A stretch of DNA of 64,000 nucleotides from NCBI RefSeq assembly GCF_016811075.1, contig NZ_JAFBGL010000009.1:62001-126000 (forward strand), given 5' to 3'. Shown piece by piece: positions 42,024 through 44,138 of this stretch. The notes under the pieces are model-generated. The model saw only the letters and a program-made list of their open reading frames with translations. It searched no databases and was not told where the DNA came from. Source of the DNA: Oceaniferula flava. GTDB lineage: Bacteria > Verrucomicrobiota > Verrucomicrobiia > Verrucomicrobiales > Akkermansiaceae. The position numbers and the translations under genes are program-made. How positions within the stretch are numbered: position 1 is the first letter of the stretch; each line of letters begins with the position of its first letter.

Positions 42024-42118
42024 TGGCGGAGAGGGAAGGAATTGAACCAACCGGAGACCGTGACAGCCTCCCAACGGTTTTGAAGACCGCGGCGACCACC
42101 AGGCACGCTTCACTCTCC
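42024..42118 (-). tRNA. selC: tRNA-Sec (anticodon TCA)
   Basis: The gene is 95 nt with encoded CCA (42024-42026). The anticodon stem GCGGT/ACCGT encloses loop CTTCAAA, anticodon TCA. The G73 discriminator, long variable arm (GGAG/CTCC) and D arm with CCTGGTGG match bacterial selenocysteine tRNAs. The acceptor begins GGAGAG with CTCTCC. By my reading the T stem has two adjacent U-U mismatches (GTTGG against CCTTC), and the acceptor plus T arms sum to 12 rather than 13 positions. A strong promoter lies just upstream. Confidence 0.85.
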
Positions 42119-42138: not shown

Positions 42139-42166
42139 AATCTATCCGGAGGTGGAATGTTGTCAA
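42139..42166 (-). promoter_or_regulatory. selC: Promoter of tRNA-Sec
   Basis: On the minus strand a consensus -35 TTGACA (42166-42161), a 16-base spacer and a -10 TAGATT (42144-42139) place transcription start about 12-14 bases before the tRNA 5' end. Confidence 0.65.
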
Positions 42167-42299: not shown

Positions 42300-44138
42300 A
42301 TGGCAGAATACACAGAAGCAGACATTAAGAGTCTCGATTGGAAAGAGCACATCCGCATGCGCCCGGGCATGTACATCGGCAAGTTAGGCGATGGTAAAAG
42401 TGCAGACGACGGCATCTACATCCTGCTCAAAGAGGCCTTGGATAACTCCATCGATGAATACGTCATGGGCTACGGCTCGGAAATCAAGGTGACCATCGAT
42501 GACGATAGTCGCGTGGAAGTCCGCGATTACGGTCGGGGCATTCCGTTAGGGAAGCTCATGGACTGCGCCGCCAAGATCAACACCGGGGCGAAGTATGACA
42601 GCGAAGCATTTAAAAAATCCGTCGGCCTGAACGGCGTGGGGATCAAGGCGGTGAACGCCTTGTCGACGTTCTTCGAAATCCAAGCTTGGCGCGAGGGCGA
42701 AACCAAAGCGATCGAGTTCAGCAAAGGGGAGGTGGTCGAGGAAATGGCCAAGCCGCGCAAGGATGCGGGGCAAAACGGCACCCGTCTGGCCTTCGATGTC
42801 GATCGCACGATCTTCCCAGCCAAGACCCGCTTCCGCGCGGGTTATGTGGAGAAAATGTGCCGCTACTATTCCTATCTCAACCCCGGCTTGGCTGTCATTT
42901 TCAATGGCAAGAAATTCAAGTCCAAGAATGGTTTGTTAGACTTGTTGAAGGAGGAGATGGATAGCGAACCGCTCTATGCGCCGATCCACCTTCGGGAGAA
43001 AGATATCGAAATTGTTTTCACCCACAGCGAGGAGAGCGGCGAGGAATATTACTCCTTCGTCAATGGCCAGAACACCACCCAGGGGGGCACCCACCTGGCG
43101 GCATTCCGTGAGGCGATTGTGCAGGTTTTGCGCGGCTTCTATAAAAAACAATACAACCCGGCGGACATCCGTAGCGGCCTGGAAGCTGCGGTGCTGGTGC
43201 GCATCGAGGACCCCGTCTTCGAGAGTCAGACCAAGACCAAGTTGGGTAGCATGACAGTCTCTGAAAAAGGGGAAACCATCCGCACCTTTGTCAGCAATTT
43301 CCTCAAGGAGCATCTCGATAATTACCTGCACAAGAACCCCAAGGTTGCCGAGGCATTGCAGAAACGGATCCTCGCGGCCGAGCGCGAACGTAAGGAGCTT
43401 TCCGGCGTGAAAAAGATCGCCAGAGAGCGTGCTCGCAAGGCGAAGGTGCATAATAAAAAACTCCGAGATTGCCGGGCACACTTTGCCAGCAAACACAAGC
43501 GTCGTGAGGAATCCACCGTGTTCATCACCGAGGGCGACTCCGCCAGTGGCTCGATTACCAAGAGCCGTGATGTTGAGACCCAGGCGGTCTTCTCTCTGCG
43601 AGGGAAACCTCTGAACTCCTTTGGTCTGAAGCGAAACGTCGTTTATGAAAACGAGGAGTTCAACCTGCTCCAGCACGCGCTTGATATCGAAGAGAACCTC
43701 GAGACTCTGCGCTACAACCGGGTGGTGATTGCTACCGATGCCGATGTCGATGGCATGCACATTCGCTTGCTGCTGCTGACCTTTTTCCTGCAGTTCTTCC
43801 CTGAGCTTGTTAGGAACGGGCACCTCTACATTTTGCAAACTCCTCTGTTCCGGGTGCGGAATAAAAAGGAGACCCGCTACTGCTACGATGATGATGAACG
43901 CGTCGCCGCGATGAAAGCTCTGGGCAAGGCTGCCGAGATCACTCGCTTCAAAGGTTTGGGGGAGATCTCGCCGGACGAATTCAAGTTCATGATCGGCCCT
44001 GACATGCGTCTCGACCCGGTGCTGATGGAAGAAGGTAAGGGGATCAAAGAAATGCTCACGTTCTACATGGGCAAGAATACCCCCGATCGCCAAGAATTCA
44101 TCATCGAGAACCTTCGCGAAGACGTCGATGCGGCCTAG
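42300..44138 (+). CDS. parE: DNA topoisomerase IV subunit B
   Basis: The 612-aa protein has GHKL ATPase motifs: LDNSIDEYV (catalytic Glu in the KEALDNS segment), DYGRGIPLG and [13 protein letters not shown]. The TOPRIM domain has [10 protein letters not shown] and [13 protein letters not shown], and the C-terminus has [12 protein letters not shown]. The opening [22 protein letters not shown] and the short length match the ParE of Bacteroidetes and relatives rather than proteobacterial GyrB. The partner parC is not adjacent. The gene is divergent from tRNA-Sec and is followed by a large hairpin. Confidence 0.92.

Follow-up and report, generated by a model that had tools for sequence, protein, structure and literature searches.

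A conserved 12-layer tRNA-Sec with T-stem mismatches goes with a distinct SelA and SelB clade in Verrucomicrobiota

The window, a stretch of 64,000 nucleotides from the Oceaniferula flava genome, carries a selenocysteine tRNA gene (selC) that is very probably functional. With the same high confidence, and as judged from sequence comparison, its 12-layer, partly unpaired helix would represent a conserved, inherited type of tRNA-Sec that goes with a distinct SelA/SelB clade. What we observed comprises the gene and its conservation, a promoter sequence, selA and selB, a selD that contains TGA, and the agreement of tRNA type with SelA/SelB clade. The 12-bp tRNA-Sec is already known from other phyla, as the passage on it in PMC5330540 describes; what is new here is a variant with fixed mismatches. 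The interest of the gene rests more on the history it shares with SelA and SelB than on the mismatches alone: an ordinary function would be served by an unusual, conserved body.

Results

The selC gene of the window

ARAGORN and the sequence itself identified the minus strand from 42118 to 42024 as a tRNA-Sec gene with anticodon UCA and an encoded CCA. The gene matched Rfam family RF01852 with 57.6 bits against a gathering score of 47, and thus lies above the curated cut-off, which some tRNA-Ser also pass (L037, L085, L087-L090). Both programs bear out the first-pass annotation, which had called a tRNA-Sec from the anticodon, long variable arm, D arm and G73. The gene combines the features of a tRNA-Sec: UCA, a long variable arm, a D stem of six pairs with a 4-nt loop, and G73. 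Its parts are listed below, with counts out of 71 referring to the parsed 12-nt genes described in the section on conservation.

42024..42118, minus strand: selC, the tRNA-Sec gene, from G1 to the encoded CCA (ARAGORN; Rfam RF01852, 57.6 bits)
42113..42118, minus strand: acceptor 5' strand, positions 1-6, pairing with 42028-42033 (1-72 to 6-67 standard in 71/71)
42112..42112, minus strand: U7, unpaired, facing C66 at 42034 (7-66 standard in 0/71: U·C 68, A·C 3)
42111..42111, minus strand: G8, possible partner of C66 if U7 is bulged (8-66 standard in 64/71)
42092..42108, minus strand: D arm with six pairs, 4-nt loop UGGU and a bulged U at 42105 (Rfam alignment; helix 99.5% paired in alignment A1)
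42081..42083, minus strand: anticodon UCA, which reads UGA (ARAGORN)
42053..42072, minus strand: long variable arm (MFE fold; sequence)
42052..42052, minus strand: G48, alternative partner of C66 (both invariant, 71/71; paired in the MFE fold)
42047..42051, minus strand: T stem 5' strand, G49 U50 U51 G52 G53 (parsed genes)
42049..42050, minus strand: U51 and U50, facing U63 and U64 (U·U in the window's order: 50-64 in 30/31, 51-63 in 22/31)
42036..42037, minus strand: U64 and U63 of the tandem U·U (parsed genes)
42035..42039, minus strand: T stem 3' strand, C61 to C65 (49-65 is G-C, C-G or A-U in A1)
42028..42034, minus strand: acceptor 3' strand of only 7 nt, positions 66-72 (parsed gene)
42027..42027, minus strand: discriminator G73 (sequence; G in every parsed gene, the parser favouring G there)
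42139..42166, minus strand: promoter TTGACA-16-TAGATT, second hexamer ending 20 nt before G1 (alike in 7/8 same-genus relatives)

From C61 to C72 the gene has 12 nt in its 3' strand, in place of the 13-pair acceptor plus T domain of the canonical 8/5 tRNA-Sec, which agrees with the first-pass count of 12 rather than 13 positions. GGAGAG pairs with CUCUCC in the acceptor, and U7 lies opposite C66. The T stem consists of G49-C65, U50·U64, U51·U63, G52-C62 and G53-C61, and thus holds the two adjacent U-U mismatches that had been read in it before. Like the 7/5 subtype, the gene has 7 nt between the T stem and G73. The two U·U positions set it apart from the five paired T-stem layers of that subtype; its seven acceptor layers would be reached with a bulged U7 and a G8-C66 pair, 7-66 itself being paired in none of the 71 genes. 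In the minimum free energy (MFE) fold, the two U·U form an internal loop and G48 pairs with C66; the z-score of −1.95, with 7 of 200 shuffles folding equally well, is a weak signal taken alone. Scanning of the window for a second copy of the selC 3' end found none.

Promoter and neighbourhood

The adjacent promoter proposed in the first-pass annotation was recovered as TTGACA-16-TAGATT, which agrees with the consensus at 10/12 positions; one such site was found upstream of selC, against a shuffled mean of 0.2. Seven of the eight same-genus relatives with a located selC have TTGACA, a 16-nt spacer and a TA...T hexamer upstream (L028 does not), although two of the seven, L024 and L026, have similar upstream DNA, and single sites in the genus were matched by up to 31% of shuffles. 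The distance from the hexamer to G1 varies between 9 and 26 nt among the seven. Outside the genus, 12 loci were checked: L017 has a 10/12 site and the rest reach 9 or less, one upstream stretch being too short for scoring.

The genes selC, selA, selB and selD of the window's genome are each on a separate contig. Among the genomes compared, the start of selA falls within 5 kb of selC in 13/31 genomes with the 12-nt type, 9/19 with the 13-nt type and 2/3 with a third type described below. Beside selC, at 42300-44138 of the window, a 612-aa type II topoisomerase B subunit is encoded; its matches to the gyrB and parE models are below their cut-offs, and it is perhaps a divergent paralogue.

Conservation of the 12-nt type

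The 12-nt strand and the unpaired 7-66 of the window recur in 28 relatives of the same genus, family or order, among which L015 alone has a paired T stem. A search across 387 genomes of the phylum added 28 new loci, of which 23 were tRNA-Sec and 5 tRNA-Ser. A covariance model trained on 36 sequences was then applied to 384 genomes from the class; it gave 60 matches in 58 genomes, of which 50 scored at least 84 bits and 10 between 57 and 65 bits. All 50 high-scoring matches were of the 12-nt type; the remaining 10 were nine 13-nt tRNA-Sec and L228, which is tRNA-Ser-like.

The parsed set comprised 71 genes of the window's 12-nt type, from 71 genomes, and 22 of the 13-nt type, excluding two duplicates (L195, L200) and the third-type genes L080, L084 and L086. 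Pairs 1-72 to 6-67 were standard in all 71 of the 12-nt genes, partly by construction, since the parser relies on acceptor pairing both to place the 5' end and to choose between 12 and 13 nt, and it prefers G73. Positions 7-66, 8-66, 48-66 and the T stem played no part in this choice. Pair 7-66 was standard in 0/71 genes (U·C in 68, A·C in 3), 52-62 and 53-61 were standard in 71/71 and 49-65 in 70/71. Position 50-64 was U·U in 30/31 genes of the window's order, with a U-G pair in the remaining one, and in 4/40 outside the order, where it was paired in 35/40. Position 51-63 was U·U in 22/31 genes inside the order and in 0/40 outside; within the order it varies between U·U, G-C, G-U and C-G.

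In the 36-sequence alignment A1 (34 distinct rows), all five pairing measures exceeded those of all 500 shuffles and of the slid controls, and 49-65 was seen as G-C, C-G and A-U. As far as sequence comparison can tell, the T stem thus forms a genuine helix that is weak at two positions, of which one hardly varies within the window's order. Two arrangements are available to C66. It could pair with G8 across a bulged U7 (64/71 genes), or, alternatively, a 6/6 layout would pair it with G48 (71/71), for which there is no covariation evidence because both positions are invariant.

With RF01852, the 13-nt genes of the phylum scored up to 82.4 bits, against the 57.6 bits of the window's gene. Rfam matches whose loci were not fetched reach 50.5 bits in one search and 53.7 bits in another, in a score range that holds both tRNA-Ser and tRNA-Sec: of the loci read in it, ARAGORN called six tRNA-Ser (L037, L085, L087-L090), and L030-L036 and L086 are tRNA-Sec. 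There may thus be more tRNA-Sec among the unfetched matches.

Two further observations concern selC genes of the phylum. In 9 of the 22 genes of the 13-nt type (L066-L070, L072, L074-L076), 49-65 is an unpaired U·C, and four of these also have C·A at 50-64. Contig DCQY01000027.1 holds two complete, slightly different copies of selC (L110 and L146).

Distribution of the U50·U64 pattern

Across 84,980 species genomes, 82 stretches matched a T-arm pattern that fixes U50·U64 but leaves position 51 open. Among the 80 matches listed, 79 carried titles of Verrucomicrobiota or a subgroup thereof, and one was titled 'Bacterium'. These 80 loci comprised 71 complete genes, 6 with only the 3' part and 3 cut by contig ends; of the complete genes, 49 have U at position 51, 20 have G and 2 have A. 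Three isolates are among the listed records, Roseibacillus persicicus, R. ishigakijimensis and Rubritalea marina; all have U50·U64 and the 12-nt strand, the first two with G51·U63 and the last with U51·U63.

The six partial loci (L104, L108, L114, L116, L126, L133) retain just the 3' half of selC, which begins near the anticodon loop and follows unrelated DNA. Three of their assemblies hold further copies of such halves (L155 with L114, L171 with L126, L156 with L108). From their sequence, the six halves look like attachment-site repeats of elements integrated at selC.

The selenocysteine machinery

The first-pass annotation had predicted selenoproteins elsewhere in the genome and had suggested a search for selA, selB and selD. 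All three genes are present in the genome, which is 98.48% complete. We found selA with 499 bits and no internal stop, selB with 310.9 bits in a 647-aa frame, and selD with 372 bits and a single in-frame TGA, in ...SLASCAGUASKLD..., where U falls at what we take to be the usual Sec/Cys site of SelD. Plain folding of the DNA after this TGA gave no signal for a hairpin (z 0.57; 143 of 200 shuffles folded equally well). Formate dehydrogenase was rejected as a second selenoprotein: the best alpha-subunit match in this genome falls short of the family cut-off and contains no internal stop or TGA. Of the two families checked, selD and formate dehydrogenase, selD is the sole predicted selenoprotein of the window's genome.

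Among 58 genomes compared for these genes, 27 have both a located selC and selA, 4 have selA only, 2 have selC only and 25 have neither. SelD is above cut-off in 34/58; it contains one TGA in 29 of the 34, and a selA match accompanies it in 26 of the 29. The holdings do not agree everywhere: selC occurs without a found selA in G006, G039 and G658, selA without a located selC in G004, G005, G007 and G010; selB was not found at E 1e-60 in G658 and G453; and G011 has selB and a TGA-containing selD, with selA not found and selC not located. Incomplete assemblies may explain these cases. Separately, G055 and G036 (L051, L052) have a strong selD without TGA, and no selA was found in them, which suggests from their gene content that selenium is used there otherwise than as selenocysteine.

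tRNA type and SelA/SelB clade

Of the 60 rows in a SelA tree, 37 come with the window's 12-nt type, 20 with the 13-nt type and 3 with a fully paired 12-nt type. The three tRNA types form three groups on this tree; their distribution takes 2 changes, the minimum possible, and 0 of 200 shuffles gave a value as low. The split of the 12-nt type is supported with 100/99. The rows of one metagenome-assembled genome (MAG), G452, were labelled by hand (L267 shares a contig with a 13-nt gene, and L289 received the other label after the first tree), and with both rows removed the count is still 2 changes. A SelB tree of 29 rows separated the 12-nt from the 13-nt genomes with support 100/100, although some of its rows are partial or long-branched and long-branch warnings apply to it and to the SelA tree built alongside. 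Labels on both trees partly track species relatedness; families f85 and f94 contain both tRNA types, and therefore the match of tRNA type with SelA and SelB is not a matter of species descent only. Judged from these trees, the 12-nt architecture is inherited, and a distinct clade of SelA and SelB accompanies it. The U·U label takes 4 changes on the SelA tree, and the deepest branches of the 12-nt type, as drawn, are U·U. On this tree, whose root was not inferred, U·U may be an old state that gave way to pairs in other families.

The third tRNA-Sec type of the phylum (L080, L084 and L086, from G388, G330 and G111) also has 12 nt in the 3' strand; its 7/5 stems are paired, and its SelA form a separate group. 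The MAG G452 (74% complete, 4% contamination) holds a 13-nt and a 12-nt tRNA-Sec (L225, L203), two SelA and two SelB, one per clade. Either one cell has two Sec systems or the bin is mixed, contamination being a live alternative.

Discussion

Function and rival explanations

The first-pass annotation had left two options, a fold unusual for the lineage or a drifting gene. The fold is unusual beside that of E. coli, yet it is the rule in this lineage, and drift is refuted because the mismatches lie at fixed positions in dozens of genomes beside intact or covarying pairs. Although a T stem poorly paired by canonical rules and an Rfam score below that of the best 13-nt genes would fit a decaying selC or pseudogene, the mismatches are the same across the order, neighbouring pairs covary, the promoter form recurs, selA and selB are intact and selD contains its TGA. 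We rejected this reading as very improbable on the ground that the same mismatches are conserved across genera. Even less credible is an assembly or sequencing error that dropped one base of the 3' acceptor strand. One added base in that strand would, from the sequence, restore the 8/5 layout, but the same 12-nt strand stands in the 71 genes from 71 genomes and in named isolates; its identity in independent isolate genomes led us to reject the error.

In the functional, inherited tRNA-Sec that we favour, known biology would assign the steps as follows. SerRS would serylate the tRNA via its long variable arm and G73, SelA would convert Ser-tRNA to Sec-tRNA, and SelB would deliver the product to UGA in at least selD. 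The acceptor and T helices would stack to 12 layers, not 13, with 7·66 always unpaired and, in the window's order, a U·U at 50·64 that is often joined by a second one at 51·63; the window's SelA/SelB pair would accept these 12 layers.

What the mismatches do is a question within this explanation. We lean slightly towards a working tRNA whose U·U pairs are a neutral, old trait that is tolerated, with a T stem that is stable enough and a tRNA-Sec that is little used. The variation of 51-63 inside the order and the 4 changes of the U·U label point this way; 50-64, however, is far less free, being U·U in all but one gene of the order and a standard U-G there. A doubtful though still worthwhile alternative is that the mismatches are antideterminants: where the 13th pair is missing, the unpaired 7·66 and the U·U at 50·64 (with that at 51·63) would keep EF-Tu off and be read by a co-inherited SelB. 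According to the relevant passages, C7-G66, G49·U65 and C50-G64 of E. coli tRNA-Sec are SelB identity elements that reject EF-Tu (PMC9976931), and a longer stem normally does this rejection and separates tRNA-Sec from EF-Tu (review, PMC7609411). Two of these three positions (7-66, 50-64) are unpaired in the window's tRNA-Sec, 7-66 is never paired in the 71 genes, U·U at 50-64 is nearly fixed in the order beside intact flanking pairs, and SelB falls in its own clade. On the other hand, 50-64 is paired in most genes outside the order, so that U·U is not required there, and the third 12-nt type has fully paired stems.

A broader proposal, a little more tentative still, is that two Sec-decoding machineries of separate descent exist in Verrucomicrobiota, each with its own selC architecture, SelA and SelB. 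The window's SelB/EF-Tu discrimination would then work via the fixed 7·66 and 50·64 mismatches in a 12-layer helix, not via a 13th pair, and the two systems could be mutually exclusive even in one cell, such as that of the MAG G452, which appears to have both sets.

Significance

In the usual account, a 13-layer helix sets Sec-tRNA apart from ordinary tRNAs. With a 12-layer helix, fixed mismatches at two of the three E. coli EF-Tu-rejecting pairs and a separate SelA/SelB clade, what elongation factors read becomes testable. In addition, the lineage may be a source of selC, SelA and SelB that work beside the standard set without cross-reaction, which would help when selenocysteine is to be built into proteins. 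In annotation, a modest tRNA-Sec score in this phylum should not be taken to mark a pseudogene.

Comparison with known systems

The premise of the first-pass annotation that a bacterial SelA/SelB substrate needs 13 layers does not hold in general: 12-nt tRNA-Sec go here with a separate SelA and SelB clade, and 12-layer tRNA-Sec have been published (PMC5330540). Among the titles and abstract openings listed from the open-licence PMC literature, none reported on tRNA-Sec structure in Verrucomicrobiota. A 12-layer tRNA-Sec with an extra nucleotide is known from several other bacterial groups, in the pertinent passages of PMC5330540 and PMC4607533; the former names Gammaproteobacteria, Clostridiales, Spirochaetes, two Alphaproteobacteria, Rubrobacter and Dehalogenimonas.

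The canonical 8/5 (E. coli type) shares with the window's tRNA-Sec the UCA anticodon, the long D stem with a 4-nt loop, the long variable arm and G73. It differs in its 13-nt 3' strand, against 12 nt, and in the same phylum it goes with a different SelA/SelB clade. Allo-tRNAs with a 12-bp acceptor domain of 8/4 or 9/3 layout (Mukai 2017, as summarized in PMC7609411) are likewise 12-layer and tRNA-Sec-like, but mostly have, according to that summary, non-serine anticodons over many codons, whereas the window's has UCA, with selA, selB and selD in its genome. In the epsilonproteobacterial 7/5 tRNA-Sec (PMC4607533), covariance likewise favours 7/5 over 8/5; the lineage is different, and the passage in question does not describe a mismatched T stem.

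The closest known system is the 12-bp (7/5) tRNA-Sec of Santesmasses et al. (2017; PMC5330540). As in the window, its passage on 7/5 describes a spacing of 7 nt from T stem to G73, one additional nucleotide on the 5' side, either bulged or placed in the linker as 7a, and genomes with selA and selB. The D stem is bulged in both, at 13a in Clostridiales and in the window at a position not matched to that numbering. That passage does not name Verrucomicrobiota or mention T-stem mismatches. Unlike the 7/5 form described there, the window's type never pairs 7-66 and carries U·U in its T stem.
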